Source of the DNA: an uncultured Opitutia bacterium
GTDB taxonomy: Bacteria; Verrucomicrobiota; Verrucomicrobiia; Opitutales; Opitutaceae
Assembly: GCA_903827245.1 (NCBI GenBank)
Contig: CAIKHO010000022.1
Coordinates: forward strand, 1 to 64,000
DNA length: 64,000 bases
Direction: 5' to 3'
Shown piece after piece: positions 25,914-30,589 of this stretch. A model generated the notes under the pieces. It ran no database searches and was not told the origin of the DNA. It was given only the letters and a program-made list of their open reading frames with translations. Positions within the stretch are counted from its first letter, which is position 1; each line of letters starts with the position of its first letter. Made by a program: the position numbers and the translations under genes.

Positions 25914-26471
25914 TCAGTTCAGGCTCGTGTCCTCCGGCTCGTTCATCCGCAGGCGCCAGTCCAAGCTCACGTTGCCGAGGACCGTACGCCAGAGCGCCTC
26001 GTCCTGCGGGTGGCTCATCAGGTCGCCGGGCACGGCGGTGACGACCCACGTGTCCTGTTTGAGCTCATTTTCCAGCTGGCCGGCCGACCAGCCGGAATAA
26101 CCGAGAAACGCGCGCACGTGCACCCCTTCCTCCCGCGAAAGCTCCACCGCCTTGTCGGGCTCGATGCCGAGGTGAAGCTTGAAGCCGTCGTCCCGGGTCT
26201 GCCACGCCGCGAGGATCAGCTGCTCGGTCTGCACCGGGCCGCCCTGGAAAACCGGCACGCCGGCCAGCGGGCCGAGCGCGAATTCGGCATGGAGATCGCC
26301 AAGCAGGCGGCCGAGCGGCCGATTCAGCACCATGCCCATCGCCCCCTCGCCGTTGTGGACGGACATGAGGATGACGGAGCGGCGGAAATTCGGGTCGCGC
26401 AACACGGGATGTGCCAGCAGGAGCGAGCCTGAGAGGCTTTTCGACCGGGAACTTTTGAGCCGTTCGCGCAT
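25914..26471 (-). CDS. YqgE/AlgH family protein
   Basis: The 185-residue protein has the family features SGSLLLAHPVLRDPNFRRSV (about 14-33), the GAMGMVLNRPLG loop, and the later FLGYSGWSAGQLENEL. AlgH/YqgE proteins are conserved cytoplasmic proteins of unsettled biochemical role. The dCMP deaminase gene ends 11 bases upstream on the same strand, so the two are probably one operon. Confidence 0.9.
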   Translation of the reverse strand: MRERLKSSRSKSLSGSLLLAHPVLRDPNFRRSVILMSVHNGEGAMGMVLNRPLGRLLGDLHAEFALGPLAGVPVFQGGPVQTEQLILAAWQTRDDGFKLHLGIEPDKAVELSREEGVHVRAFLGYSGWSAGQLENELKQDTWVVTAVPGDLMSHPQDEALWRTVLGNVSLDWRLRMNEPEDTSLN

Positions 26472-26482
26472 GGGGTCCGCGT

Positions 26483-26959
26483 TTATTCGAGGTGAACGAT
26501 TTTGACGCCCGCGTCGGTGAGCAGCGGCGCCACCAACGGGTCGTTGTTATAATCGAGGCGGTATTTCAGCTCGGCGATGCCGGCCGCCGCGAGGATCTTC
26601 GCGCAGTTGATGCATGGATAATGCGAGACGTAGGCCACGCAGCCCTCGACCGAGCTGCCGCGCCGCGCGGCGTCCGCCACGGCATTCTGCTCGGCATGCA
26701 CCGTGGCCTGCTCGTGGCCGTCGCGCACGCGCGAGGCATGCGGCGCGCCGGGCAGGTAGCCGTTGTAGCCCGCCGCGACCAGCCGGTTCTTGCGGCAGCC
26801 GCCCGTCACGATCACGCACCCCACATGCAGCCGCTCGCAATCCGAGCGCGAGGCGATGAGCACCGCGGTGGCCATGAAATACTCGTCCCAGGAAGGACGA
26901 TGCGGAAAGGCCTCCGCGGCCCGGGCTATCTGGTCAACAGGGTTGGTCGGCGGGTTCAT
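26483..26959 (-). CDS. Deoxycytidylate deaminase
   Basis: The 158-residue enzyme deaminates dCMP to dUMP for thymidylate synthesis. Zinc ligands and catalytic Glu are in HAEQNAVADAA, with PCINCAK supplying the two cysteines. WDEYFMATAVLIASRSDCER at the N-terminus is typical of dCMP deaminases rather than of cytidine or tRNA deaminases. The ATG at 26959 (MNPPTNPVDQIA) was chosen over one 54 bases upstream. It is divergent from the polyketide cluster. Confidence 0.9.
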   Translation of the reverse strand: MNPPTNPVDQIARAAEAFPHRPSWDEYFMATAVLIASRSDCERLHVGCVIVTGGCRKNRLVAAGYNGYLPGAPHASRVRDGHEQATVHAEQNAVADAARRGSSVEGCVAYVSHYPCINCAKILAAAGIAELKYRLDYNNDPLVAPLLTDAGVKIVHLE

Positions 26960-27015: not shown

Positions 27016-27660
27016 ATGCGCCGCACCCTGGAACCCGAGATCCTCGATTCGCTCCCCGCCGGCCATCCCGACGCCCTGCACAACCGCCGCGATCTCAGGG
27101 TCGTCAACCGGGTCATGGGAAATCACCGCTGGTTCGGCCGAAAGCTGCCGCCGCTCGTTCGCACCGGGGAAACCGTGCTCGAGGTGGGCGCGGGCACGGG
27201 CGAACTCGGCGCGCGGCTCGCCACGGCCCGGATAAACGTGGACGGACTCGACCTCTGGCCCCGCCCCGCCGGCTGGCCCGCCGCCGGCGCCTGGCACGTG
27301 GCGGACCTGCGGCACTTTGCCGGCTACGCCGGCTACCCCGTGGTGATCGGCAACCTGATCTTTCATCAGTTTTCCGAGGCGGATCTGGCCGCCCTCGGCA
27401 CAGAATTTTGCGGCCACGCCCGCGTGATCCTCGCCTGCGAACCCGCCCGCCGGCGCCGCTGGCAATTCCTTTATGCGCTGCTCGCCCCGTTACTCGGTGC
27501 AAACTATGTCAGCCGGCACGATGGCCGCGTGAGCATCGCGGCCGGTTTTCGCGGCGATGAACTGCCGCGGCTGCTGGGACTGACGGCGGCGGAGTGGGAC
27601 TGGCACTGCACCTCCACCACGCTGGGCGGCTACCGCATGATCGCCATCCGCCGCGCATGA
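27016..27660 (+). CDS. SAM-dependent methyltransferase of the polyketide cluster
   Basis: The 214-residue protein has a class I SAM-binding motif VLEVGAGTGELGARLA (about 55-70) and the post-motif GLDLWPRP. It is the first gene of a tight three-gene operon and overlaps the FAD oxidoreductase by 4 bases (ATGA at 27657-27660). By context it may methylate the product of the type III polyketide synthase two genes downstream. The actual substrate is not visible in the sequence. Confidence 0.85.
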   Translation: MRRTLEPEILDSLPAGHPDALHNRRDLRVVNRVMGNHRWFGRKLPPLVRTGETVLEVGAGTGELGARLATARINVDGLDLWPRPAGWPAAGAWHVADLRHFAGYAGYPVVIGNLIFHQFSEADLAALGTEFCGHARVILACEPARRRRWQFLYALLAPLLGANYVSRHDGRVSIAAGFRGDELPRLLGLTAAEWDWHCTSTTLGGYRMIAIRRA

Positions 27661-28688
27661 AGACCGCCGGCGCCCACCGCCCGATCGAGATCGTCGGCGG
27701 CGGACTCGCGGGCCTTTCCCTCGGGCTCGCCCTGCGCCGCGCGGGCGTGCCGGTCACGCTGAGCGAGGCCGGCGAGTATCCACGCCACCGGGTGTGCGGC
27801 GAATTCATCACCGGTCTGAAACCGGCAACCATCAATCGGCTCGGCCTCGGTCCCCTGCTCGCCGACGCCCTGCCGCACCGCGAGGTCGCCTGGTACATCG
27901 GCGATGCCGCGTCGCGGGTACAGCAGCTGCCCTCGCCTGCCCTCGGGCTCAGCCGTCACCTGCTCGATGCACGGCTGGCCGCGGCCTTTGTCAGCGCCGG
28001 CGGGGACCTGCGCACCCGCGCGCGGGTCACCGACCTCGCCGCCCAACCCGGCCGCGTCATTGCGACGGGCCGGCGGCGTGCCCGGTCGCCCTGGCTCGGC
28101 CTGAAAATCCATGCCCGGGATCTCCCGCTCGCGCGCGGCCTCGAGCTGCATCTCGGGGACAACGCGTATGTCGGGCTCGCCCGCATCGAGGACGGGCGCG
28201 TCAATGTCTGCGGTCTTTTCCGCCGGCGCCAGCTTTGCGCCAAGGGCAGCGGCCTGTTGCTCGGCTACCTGCAGGCCGCGGGGCTCGGCGCCCTCGCGGC
28301 GCGACTCGCCGCCGCCGCGCTGGACGAGGAGGCATTTTGCGCCGTGGCGGCCGTGGCCTTCGACCACCGGGTGCCGGCGGCCGGACCAGCCAGTATCGGT
28401 GACGCCTGCGCCATGACCCCTCCCTTCACCGGCAACGGCATGGCCATGGCGTTCCAGGGCGCCGAGCTCGCGCTCGACCCGTTGCTCGCCTATGCGCGGG
28501 AGGAATGCACCTGGACCGAGAGTCGGCGTCGGATCCGGCTCGCCTTGCGCCGGAACTTTCGCGTGCGCCTCGCGTCAGCAGGGGCGATGCATCCTTTTCT
28601 CCTGCGGCCTCCGCGCCAGCGCTGGCTCGCCGCACTGAACGTTGCCGGCCTGCTGCCGCTGCGTCCACTCTACGCCCTGCTTCACTGA
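27657..28688 (+). CDS. FAD-dependent oxidoreductase of the geranylgeranyl-reductase/PHBH type
   Basis: The 343-residue protein has the N-terminal Rossmann FAD motif IVGGGLAGLSLGLALRRAG (about 11-29), YPRHRVCGEF, and the C-terminal GDACAMTPPFTGNGMAMAFQ that binds FAD ribityl and diphosphate. This class includes hydroxylases and reductases of lipids and aromatics. Its ATG overlaps the methyltransferase stop, and the polyketide synthase starts 16 bases after its own stop. It probably tailors the polyketide by hydroxylation or oxidation. Confidence 0.88.
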   Translation: MKTAGAHRPIEIVGGGLAGLSLGLALRRAGVPVTLSEAGEYPRHRVCGEFITGLKPATINRLGLGPLLADALPHREVAWYIGDAASRVQQLPSPALGLSRHLLDARLAAAFVSAGGDLRTRARVTDLAAQPGRVIATGRRRARSPWLGLKIHARDLPLARGLELHLGDNAYVGLARIEDGRVNVCGLFRRRQLCAKGSGLLLGYLQAAGLGALAARLAAAALDEEAFCAVAAVAFDHRVPAAGPASIGDACAMTPPFTGNGMAMAFQGAELALDPLLAYAREECTWTESRRRIRLALRRNFRVRLASAGAMHPFLLRPPRQRWLAALNVAGLLPLRPLYALLH

Positions 28689-28704
28689 CTCACCCGTCCA
28701 CTTC

Positions 28705-29745
28705 ATGTATCTTCACGCCCTGGCCACCGCGGTTCCCTCACCCACCTACACCCAGCCCGAATGCTGGGAACTGGTCCAGCACTCCGCGGTGCGCGACCGG
28801 CTCACCCGGCGCTCGCGGTTGATCCTGCGCTCCATCCTGACCGGGGACAACGGCATCGCCACGCGTCATTTCGCCGTACCGGACATCGGGCAGGTCTTCG
28901 ACCTGAGTCCCGACCAGTTGAACGCCGCCTTCCGCCGCGAGGGCCCGCGGCTCGCGGGCGCAGCGCTCACGCTGGCGCTCGAAAAGGCCGGTGGACGGCC
29001 CGCGGAGATCGACGCGCTCCTGATCTGCACTTGCACAGGTTACCTGTGCCCGGGCCTCACCAGTTATGTCGCCGAGCAGCTTGGACTCCGGTCGAACGCC
29101 TTTCTGCAGGACCTCGTGGGCCTCGGTTGCGGCGCGGCCATTCCGACCCTTCGCGCCGCCAGCCACATCCTCGCCGCGCACCCCGGCGCCACCGTCGCGT
29201 GCGTGGCCGTGGAAATATGCTCGGCGGCGTTCTACCTCGATGACGATCCGGGCGTGCTGATCAGCGCCTGCCTCTTCAGCGACGGGGCGGCGGCCACGAT
29301 CTGGCGCTCCACCCCGGGTCAGTCCGGGCTGCGTTGCTTCGATTTCAATACCCTGCACCTGCCGGCCGAACGCGACAAACTGCGCTTCGAGGCCCGCGAC
29401 GGCAAACTGCGCAATCTGCTCCATCGCTCGGTGCCCGAGCTGGCCGCGGCCGCGGTCGGCCGGCTCTGGGCCGAACGCGGGGCCCGCCCCGTCGCGCGGG
29501 TCGTCGCCCACCCCGGCGGCCGCGACGTGCTCACGGCGCTGGCCCCGGCCCTCGCGCCCCATTCGCTCGAGGCCAGCACCCGCGTGTTGCGCGATTGCGG
29601 CAACATGAGCAGCCCGTCCGTGCTATTTGCCCTGGAGGAAACGCTCAAGACCGCGACCCCAGGACCGGATGGCGACCTCTGGCTCGTGAGCTTCGGTGCA
29701 GGTTTCAGCGCGCACAGCTGCCGGGTCGGCGCAGCGGGCGGCTGA
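28705..29745 (+). CDS. Type III polyketide synthase
   Basis: The 346-residue enzyme has the chalcone-synthase-type catalytic triad: Cys142 in DLVGLGCGAAIP, His269 in VAHPGGRD and Asn300 in CGNMSSPS. Such homodimeric enzymes extend an acyl starter with malonyl-CoA to give resorcinols, pyrones or phloroglucinols. The starter and chain length cannot be read from sequence. The ATG at 28705 (MYLHALATAVPSPTYTQ) is the family-like start. It is the last gene of the operon with the methyltransferase and FAD enzyme, and a long hairpin follows its stop codon. Confidence 0.93.
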   Translation: MYLHALATAVPSPTYTQPECWELVQHSAVRDRLTRRSRLILRSILTGDNGIATRHFAVPDIGQVFDLSPDQLNAAFRREGPRLAGAALTLALEKAGGRPAEIDALLICTCTGYLCPGLTSYVAEQLGLRSNAFLQDLVGLGCGAAIPTLRAASHILAAHPGATVACVAVEICSAAFYLDDDPGVLISACLFSDGAAATIWRSTPGQSGLRCFDFNTLHLPAERDKLRFEARDGKLRNLLHRSVPELAAAAVGRLWAERGARPVARVVAHPGGRDVLTALAPALAPHSLEASTRVLRDCGNMSSPSVLFALEETLKTATPGPDGDLWLVSFGAGFSAHSCRVGAAGG

Positions 29746-29746
29746 T

Positions 29747-29826
29747 CTTTCTCTTTCCTCTTTATCTTTATTCTTTCTCCAGTCTGGACGGTCGGAGGAA
29801 AGAGAAAGATAAAGACGAAAGAGAAG
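29747..29826. repeat. Pyrimidine/purine hairpin repeat, copy 2
   Basis: A 34-base pyrimidine arm (starting CTTTCTCTTTCCTCTTTATC) faces a 33-base purine arm (starting GGAGGAAAGAGAAAGATAAA at 29794), with a loop of about 13 bases. The stem is nearly perfect. It is related in style to 9891-9955. It begins 1 base after the polyketide synthase stop and ends 10 bases before the next ATG, so it may act on the transcript of one or both genes. Confidence 0.7.
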
Positions 29827-29836
29827 AATTTCACCC

Positions 29837-30589
29837 ATGCCCACGCTCAACGACGTTGTCACCTACTGCGACCGGCGCACCCGCCGCGCCGCGTTCAAGG
29901 ACTCCCCCGGCGCGTTCAACGGCCTGCAGGTCGCCAACGACGGGCGCGTGACCAAGATCGGCGCTGCGGTGGACTCCGGCCTCATCCCCTTCCAGCAGGC
30001 GGTCGCCGCGGGAGTGGATTTTCTGGTCGTGCATCATGGCATGTATTGGGACATGCCGCGGCCGCTCACCGGGCCGGTTTACGAACGCGTCGCCACCCTC
30101 GTGCGGGACAACTGCGCCCTCTATTCGAATCACCTGCCGCTCGACGCGCATCCCGCGATCGGCAACAACGCCCTCCTCGCCAAGCAACTCGGCCTGAAAC
30201 CGTCCCGCCCCTTCCTGGTCCGGGACGGCGAGTCGATCGGCTGCATTGCCCGGTTCCGGAACAGCCGCGGGTCAATCCGGCGAAAGCTGGAATCCCTTTA
30301 TCCGCGCGTGATCGCGCTGGAGTACGGCTCGGCGTCACCTAAGGCCGTGGCCTTCTGCAGCGGCAGCGGCAACAGCGCCGTGCCCGAGCTCGGGTCCGCA
30401 GGCGTCGACACCCTCGTGACCGGCGAGTTGCGCGAGGAATGGTTCAACACCGCCCAGGAGCAGCGCCTCAACCTCTACCTCTGCGGACACTATGCGACCG
30501 AGGTCCACGCCGTGCAGGCCCTCGCCGCCGAGCTGGCCCGCAAGTTCAAGCTGCCGTGGGAATTCATTCCCACCGGCAATCCCCTCTGA
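29837..30589 (+). CDS. Nif3-like dinuclear metal-centre protein
   Basis: The 250-residue protein belongs to the Nif3/YbgI family, often annotated as GTP cyclohydrolase I type 2. Metal-binding residues appear in FLVVHHGMYW (about 57-66) and in the C-terminal CGHYATEV. Its biochemical role is not settled. A purine-rich GAGAAG precedes the ATG but belongs to the repeat just upstream. A type A repeat separates it from aroQ. Confidence 0.87.
   Translation: MPTLNDVVTYCDRRTRRAAFKDSPGAFNGLQVANDGRVTKIGAAVDSGLIPFQQAVAAGVDFLVVHHGMYWDMPRPLTGPVYERVATLVRDNCALYSNHLPLDAHPAIGNNALLAKQLGLKPSRPFLVRDGESIGCIARFRNSRGSIRRKLESLYPRVIALEYGSASPKAVAFCSGSGNSAVPELGSAGVDTLVTGELREEWFNTAQEQRLNLYLCGHYATEVHAVQALAAELARKFKLPWEFIPTGNPL

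Follow-up and report, generated by a model that had tools for sequence, protein, structure and literature searches.

Genomic organization of the operon

We analysed a 64,000-nucleotide stretch of DNA from an uncultured Opitutia bacterium of the family Opitutaceae (Verrucomicrobiota; assembly GCA_903827245.1, contig CAIKHO010000022.1, positions 1 to 64,000), hereafter the window. Its subject here is a compact operon for a methyltransferase (MT), an FAD-dependent oxidoreductase and a type III polyketide synthase (PKS), a gene set of a known kind whose synthase belongs to an unstudied deep branch. The three genes are as follows:

27016..27660, + strand: class I S-adenosylmethionine methyltransferase, 214 amino acids; candidate O-methyltransferase of the polyketide ring
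27657..28688, + strand: FAD-dependent oxidoreductase, 343 amino acids; candidate ring hydroxylase
28705..29745, + strand: type III PKS-like synthase, 346 amino acids; C142/H269/N300, FGAG at 330-333, Asn237, Phe228

The start of the FAD gene at 27657 sits within the end of the MT gene (a four-base ATGA overlap), and 16 bases (28689-28704) separate it from the PKS, whose ATG lies at 28705. The tight operon that an earlier reading of the bare sequence had described (hereafter the original prediction) was thereby reproduced in its coordinates, overlap and gap. A promoter scan found none. The genome spans 3.55 Mb in 91 contigs, is 97% complete and holds the PKS as its sole PF00195 match; among named relatives, those closest to the locus carry the titles Opitutae, Opitutaceae or Verrucomicrobia.

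The synthase combines an intact catalytic triad with an altered loop

The AlphaFold2 model of the PKS (pLDDT 96) adopts the type III PKS fold. Its best structural match among 1000 chains is PKS11 (4jao; Z 46.8, rmsd 1.8, 337 residues aligned), and the top 50 matches shown are type III PKSs throughout. Cys142, His269 and Asn300, the triad already named as intact in the original prediction, are in place and invariant across an alignment of 34 sequences. Among profiles, Pfam gives FAE1_CUT1_RppA 58.9 bits and Chal_sti_synt_N 49.2 bits, and the best NCBIfam model, DpgA, reaches 131.6 bits, far under its cut-off of 425 bits, with at most 51.2 bits for the models of β-ketoacyl-acyl carrier protein synthase III (KAS III).

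The GFGPG loop near the C terminus is a hallmark of type III PKSs and is tied to cyclisation. In all 46 aligned rows of the clade to which the window synthase belongs, this loop is replaced by FGAG, with Ala for Pro; all 57 other type III PKS rows keep the Pro. The 46 rows consist of 40 plus six added loci (L190-L195), and 45 of them are distinct, L128 and L166 being identical. Asn, residue 237 in the window synthase, occupies the column of the F265 gatekeeper of chalcone synthase (CHS) in every clade row, and the pairing of FGAG with Asn occurs in none of the 57 others. Both FabH outgroup rows have Ala in the loop like the clade, but Met at the gatekeeper. At the column of CHS G256, where Phe228 of the window synthase stands, the clade is uniformly bulky and aromatic (Phe in 31 rows, Tyr in 15, the six added loci among the latter), and 53 of the 57 other type III PKS rows have Trp. 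We take ArsB Trp281 and ORAS Phe252 to fall in this same column. The first has been linked to resorcinol formation and a Gly in ArsC to pyrone (PMC9927152), and the second is cited likewise for resorcinol-type cyclisation (PMC8086630). A bulky residue here may thus weakly favour a resorcinol over a pyrone; the pyrone synthase PKS11 has Trp at the column, which is therefore no clean predictor of product.

The synthase branches outside the sampled type III PKSs

A careful tree, rooted on FabH, was built from 66 of 99 rows; the 33 left out were mostly near relatives of kept rows and included the long-branch row L114. In this tree the window synthase falls in a 31-row clade composed of Verrucomicrobiota and one Caballeronia plasmid (support 96/90). 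On the opposite side (98/89) stands every other type III PKS row, namely DpgA, RppA, PKS11, PKS18, a brown-alga PKS, a planctomycete and the picocyanobacterial loci with hid gene order that represented HidC. A quick tree of all 99 rows shows the same split (84 and 89), and the six loci L190-L195 were added to the 66 rows in a tree made by the quick method. The root rests on the long FabH outgroup branch. Because the GFGPG hallmark is replaced by FGAG, we describe the synthase as a lineage sister to the type III PKSs sampled here, a deep branch that is unstudied. The original prediction had named placement in a characterised clade as its refutation, and the tree did not refute it: the synthase lies outside the clades of all the characterised or stand-in rows included, a set to which ArsB/C, SrsA, PkqA and the HidC reference itself do not belong.

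An assignment to the HidC type was tried and rejected. Three branches (98/89, 98/87 and 100/95) separate the window clade from the HidC stand-ins, forcing the two together comes at a price of 34.5 log units and is mildly rejected (p-AU 0.043), and at the F265 gatekeeper the window synthase has Asn instead of Met.

The clade member outside Verrucomicrobiota lies on plasmid pSBC2-3 of Caballeronia sp. SBC2 (L112 8001-12708), where the order is PKS-MT-FAD followed by genes for an acyl carrier protein (ACP) and a ketoacyl synthase (KAS). This relative, at 44% identity, was likely acquired by horizontal transfer. In two contigs of metagenome-assembled genomes (MAGs) the title and the grouping disagree: the PKS of one titled Akkermansia muciniphila (L054) groups with other Verrucomicrobiota, and that of one titled Bifidobacterium breve (L068) with picocyanobacteria. 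Wrong titles or misbinning of the contigs may account for this.

Family matches of the methyltransferase and the FAD enzyme

In NCBIfam the MT matches NF004851 (PRK06202) at 49.7 bits against a cut-off of 243, and no Pfam family matched it at 0.001. The FAD protein matches FAD_binding_3 (28.8 bits) and the GG-red (geranylgeranyl-reductase) superfamily (43.4 bits) weakly. Its structural model (pLDDT 92.4) resembles flavin halogenases and group A monooxygenases at Z 27-31, with PltA (31.2), TrlE (30.5), 3-hydroxybenzoate 6-hydroxylase (29.5) and PHBH (about 27.5) among the matches. Group A flavin monooxygenases are marked by a GxGxxG start, a DG motif and a C-terminal GD motif, and the first and last of these are kept in the FAD protein (G14, G16, G19, G248 and D249).

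The operon and its chromosomal place are conserved

Of 387 genomes sampled from the phylum, 101 have a match to the PKS at E <= 1e-15, as do 108 of 200 of the family. The 101 divide into 53 at E < 1e-90, all of the window's class, 15 from other classes with 38-43% identity, and 33 weaker ones. MT, FAD and PKS genes are present together in 27 of the 33 nearest named loci (L022-L054). Among 19 loci of the class from outside the family, chosen by us rather than at random, 14 have the order MT-FAD-PKS, one has PKS-MT-FAD (L173) and one has FAD-PKS with no MT detected (L148). Since so many genomes were matched and so many loci keep all three genes, the conservation exceeds what chance would give. 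The only truncated locus of the 33 is from a Lacunisphaera MAG (L049, 4747-5861), where an MT fragment lies beside a PKS that lacks its N terminus, probably a deletion or misassembly inside the operon. One in-frame stop was seen within the PKS match in each of eight genomes (G281 and G208 of the phylum sample; G557, G535, G428, G465, G463 and G439 of the family sample), which may reflect decay, a match overrunning the end of the gene or assembly error.

The surroundings of the operon in the window are these:

25914..26471, - strand: YqgE/AlgH family protein, upstream neighbour; identified by profile matches and kept in relatives
26483..26956, - strand: ComEB-type deaminase, upstream neighbour (TIGR02571, 120 bits); adjoins the operon in relatives too
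about 29745..29828, no strand assigned: pyrimidine-loop-purine hairpin in the gap from the PKS stop to the NIF3 start; a dispersed repeat copy, outside the pathway
29837..30589, + strand: NIF3/DUF34 family protein, downstream neighbour; identified by profile matches and kept in relatives

Homologues of both NIF3 and ComEB accompany the operon in 22 of the 33 nearest loci; in 20 they flank it on both sides as in the window, and in the other two (L046, L047) they stand together on one side. The chromosomal place of the operon is old and stable, as for a core function.

The hairpin folds at about -36 kcal/mol, with its pyrimidine arm first. The original prediction had called it an exceptional end to the operon. 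The hairpin exists, yet it is neither exceptional for this genome nor special to the operon: a blastn search of its own genome found 79 hairpin pieces at 38 places, 34 at E <= 0.01. The family shares an outer arm and has a variable loop. Twelve further copies were found in 20 stretches, and seven of them lie no more than 7 bases from where a mechanically called open reading frame of over 300 bases has its 3' end. The arm pattern, searched in 38 genomes, matched 35 times in the window's genome, 45 times in one family member (G021), one to four times in four more and not at all in 32; a reversed control pattern had no matches. A role as the operon's terminator was rejected, as no T-run follows the hairpin and a terminator scan did not list it. 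In a locus of the same genus (L022) the same gap holds a different, weaker pyrimidine-purine hairpin (-23.5 kcal/mol). The window's hairpin thus belongs to a dispersed repeat family with a patchy spread.

Distant members of the clade have partners that look quinone-type

We then considered all 15 loci at 38-43% identity, which belong to other classes. The 13 that were tested together form one subclade; L154 joins it in the 99-row tree and L160 stands apart. In six of the 15 (L154, L155, L156, L158, L190 and L192) a U32-family protein is encoded directly before the MT and PKS. PF01136 was over its cut-off in three of four scanned U32 proteins and just under it in L156, and those of L190 and L192 were detected with a hidden Markov model built from the four others. 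They measure about 400-440 amino acids where complete and have many invariant cysteines (four aligned); no NCBIfam model matched the four scanned proteins at 0.001.

In six other loci (L152, L157, L191, L193, L194 and L195) a flavin aromatic hydroxylase of the FAD_binding_3 family follows the PKS. Five of these were scanned with NCBIfam, with a listing threshold of 1e-15 for the distant-locus proteins: PRK06183/06184 was best or near-best, and TIGR01988 (Ubi-OHases) gave 107-135 bits against a cut-off of 224.65. The hydroxylase of L157, scanned with Pfam only, matched FAD_binding_3 at 151 bits. A UbiE/MenG-type methyltransferase then follows in five of the six loci (L152 was not separately scanned), with TIGR01934 at 143.6-163.9 bits, over the cut-off of 158.35 in L194 and L195 and under it in three. 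UbiE/MenG enzymes methylate quinols. The model of the window MT, NF004851, also matches the MTs of five scanned distant operons (L156, L157, L158, L190 and L194) at 124-162 bits.

One of the distant-member genomes (G268; L185 5622-13729, C1:67.6-75.7 kb) has a PKS-MT-U32 set about 1.4 kb from a divergent set of a UbiA-like gene, cydA and cydB. The UbiA-family protein scores 64 bits, a glyoxalase-family gene lies between the two sets, and the genome has neither MenD over cut-off nor Mqn. The partners of the distant clade members thus look quinone-type. One synthase lineage is therefore paired with flavin enzymes of two kinds and with a U32 protein.

A proposed long-chain alkyl (hydro)quinone lipid

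From the genes, fold, triad, clade, conservation and gene partners described above, we infer the starter, each chemical step and the redox role of the product. The operon may make a (hydro)quinone lipid with a long alkyl chain and an O-methylated, hydroxylated ring, by a route like those of pkq and hid, a proposal to which we give about an even chance. It is put forward because the gene set and order equal those of hidABC and the planctomycetal operons, because the gene set equals that of pkqA-C, and because fold and triad are intact and the distant partners are quinone-type; the bulky CHS-256 residue (weakly), the vicinity of cydAB in G268 and the flanks conserved in 20 of 33 loci point the same way. 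In this scheme the synthase would load a fatty acyl starter, bound to coenzyme A (CoA) or ACP, add three malonyl units and form a resorcinol ring through aldol cyclisation. That ACP and KAS genes follow PKS-MT-FAD in Caballeronia hints at ACP-bound starters. The MT would O-methylate the alkylresorcinol ring, and the FAD enzyme would hydroxylate it to a methoxy-hydroquinone. Oxidation would then yield a methoxy-alkyl-benzoquinone that cycles with its quinol form. Menaquinone might thereby be joined by a supplementary redox or membrane lipid, perhaps one tied to particular conditions. The original prediction had named a methylated, oxidised pyrone or resorcinol; an alkylresorcinol-type product is the better reading of the two, and the pyrone is kept only as a rival.

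A bolder extension, which we consider speculative and rather unlikely, would give Verrucomicrobiota an electron carrier of the benzoquinone type that owes its ring not to chorismate but to a type III PKS lineage that branched off early. Exchangeable hydroxylases would finish the ring: a GG-reductase-like FAD enzyme, an aromatic hydroxylase of the FAD_binding_3 family or a U32 enzyme that works without O2. Some lineages in which no menaquinone genes were detected would have this carrier as their only quinone, feeding cytochrome bd.

Several results weigh against the (hydro)quinone proposal. No metabolite has been seen. The FAD protein lacks the segment that bears the DG motif of other flavin hydroxylases, and it could be a reductase rather than a hydroxylase; HidB-like rows also lack a plain DG at that segment. 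The FAD gene is absent, with MT-PKS kept, in five of the 33 nearest loci (L024, L028, L040, L041 and L042), and the PKS stands without both partners in three of the 19 loci of the class (L165, L166 and L181). Three of the 15 distant loci (L153, L159 and L160) have neither a U32 protein nor a flavin hydroxylase. The window operon itself has no UbiE or U32 gene, and its MT and FAD proteins are only distantly like the quinone-type partners of the distant loci.

The menaquinone, cytochrome bd and oxygen comparisons are further points on that side. The window's genome has MenD over cut-off at 464.6 bits, which rules out the synthase as its sole source of quinone; because MenD is present, the product would there be a second carrier and not the main quinone. 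This genome has no Mqn match and also holds UbiA-family proteins, a cytochrome bd match and COX1. Neither MenD over cut-off nor Mqn was found in 11 of the 15 distant-member genomes. Among the 387 genomes, however, MenD is over cut-off in 132 and Mqn in 47, with either present in about 58 of about 260 outside the class, so that about 200 of those 260 also lack both and no link between the synthase and missing menaquinone genes emerges. Cytochrome bd was found in three of 11 distant-member genomes versus none of nine hand-picked comparison genomes, a difference that is not significant (p 0.14); two of the three are U32-type (G268 and G354), and the third (G192) has neither partner. An oxygen-driven swap between FAD hydroxylase and U32 enzyme was rejected, as COX1 is over cut-off in none of six flavin-type and none of six U32-type genomes. 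COX1 was over cut-off in all 21 class genomes tested versus two of the 15 distant-member genomes; since both distant types lack it, the pattern follows the class and not the type of hydroxylase.

The strongest rival, possible although we doubt it, holds that the pathway ends at a phenolic lipid, such as a methoxylated alkylresorcinol or a hierridin-like phenol, which would act as a membrane component or chemical signal and not as a redox carrier. The gene order is identical to that of the hid and planctomycetal operons, alkylresorcinols are proven products of those synthases, and the five MT-PKS loci without an FAD gene suggest that hydroxylation is dispensable in some species. The flavin aromatic hydroxylase with UbiE, or the U32 protein, in the distant clade members points instead to quinol chemistry. 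We regard it as improbable that the synthase makes long-chain alpha-pyrones by lactonisation: its best structural match is an alkylpyrone synthase and the cyclisation-linked loop is altered, but every one of the 46 rows has Phe or Tyr at the cyclisation column, albeit that PKS11 itself has Trp there, and the hydroxylase and methyltransferase partners also speak against it. Least probable of these is a single-condensation enzyme like KAS III or a ketoacyl-CoA synthase that passes a β-ketoacyl product to the FAD enzyme and the MT, an idea that the FabH-like FGAG loop, the FabH-rooted split of the window clade from all other type III PKS rows and the ACP and KAS genes beside the Caballeronia relative favour, but that the uniformly type III structural matches, the lead of the DpgA profile over the KAS III models and the ring-modifying families of the partners speak against.

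Type III PKSs are usually read as enzymes of specialised metabolism, and the type found in the window has stable neighbours and recurs across the phylum. If the (hydro)quinone proposal is right, polyketide quinones would extend beyond Actinomycetota into a further phylum, and one variant might not depend on O2. Because its loop is FabH-like, the clade also offers a test of the origin of type III PKSs from KAS III.

Comparison with known systems

The srsABC genes of Streptomyces griseus reportedly combine a synthase, an MT and a flavin hydroxylase to make methylated alkylquinones, and by this description they resemble the window operon; srsA is mentioned in PMC10896814. In the open-licence literature of PubMed Central, searched by titles and the starts of abstracts, we found no characterised synthase of this kind from Verrucomicrobiota; an uncharacterised type III PKS cluster has been reported in an Opitutales isolate (PMC12193912).

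The original prediction could name no product for this arrangement of genes, a claim that does not stand, as the same order is published for hidABC and for 58 planctomycetal operons (PMC10896814) and the same gene set for pkqA-C (PMC9927152). Our own matches contain it as well, as MT-FAD-PKS in picocyanobacteria and a planctomycete and as PKS-MT-FAD in sphingomonads, Bacteroidetes and Deinococcus. A survey of 131 described planctomycetes reports 96 type III PKS genes, 58 of them in operons with an MT and an oxidoreductase, and planctomycetal synthases expressed in C. glutamicum yielded pentadecyl- and heptadecylresorcinols (PMC10896814). In Cyanobium the hid genes run MT-oxidoreductase-PKS (PMC10896814), and forty-seven hierridin-like clusters are reported from cyanobacteria (PMC8086630). 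The window operon, its triad intact, thus shares three homologous genes in the same order, with the PKS last, with both the planctomycetal operon and the hid cluster that makes hierridins in Cyanobium LEGE 06113 (PMC10896814; PMC8086630). Its synthase is nonetheless only about 30% identical to the picocyanobacterial HidC stand-ins and lies outside their clade. HidC-type synthases carry Met at the F265 column (PMC8086630; the picocyanobacterial rows agree) and FGPG, whereas the window synthase has Asn and FGAG.

The U32 proteins of six of the 15 distant loci belong to the same family as UbiU and UbiV, O2-independent hydroxylases of ubiquinone synthesis, and share with them invariant cysteine pairs (four aligned; PMC6747719). 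They differ in being encoded by a single gene, in their length (UbiU and UbiV have about 300-330 amino acids; PMC6747719) and in a cysteine spacing unlike that of UbiV, and the window has no U32 gene.

Another parallel is offered by pkqA-C of mycobacteria and Streptomyces MNU77, which comprise a type III PKS, a methyltransferase and an oxidoreductase (PMC9927152) that appear to correspond to the adjacent genes of the window. The pkq order is PKS-MT-oxidoreductase, as against MT-FAD-PKS in the window, and the phylum is another (PMC9927152). The products reported for pkqA-C are long-chain methoxy-methyl-alkyl quinols and quinones, made beside menaquinone, and mass spectrometry is reported to have shown the resorcinol, the methoxyphenol, the methoxy-hydroquinone and the quinone for the pkq-type cluster found in Streptomyces MNU77 (PMC9927152).

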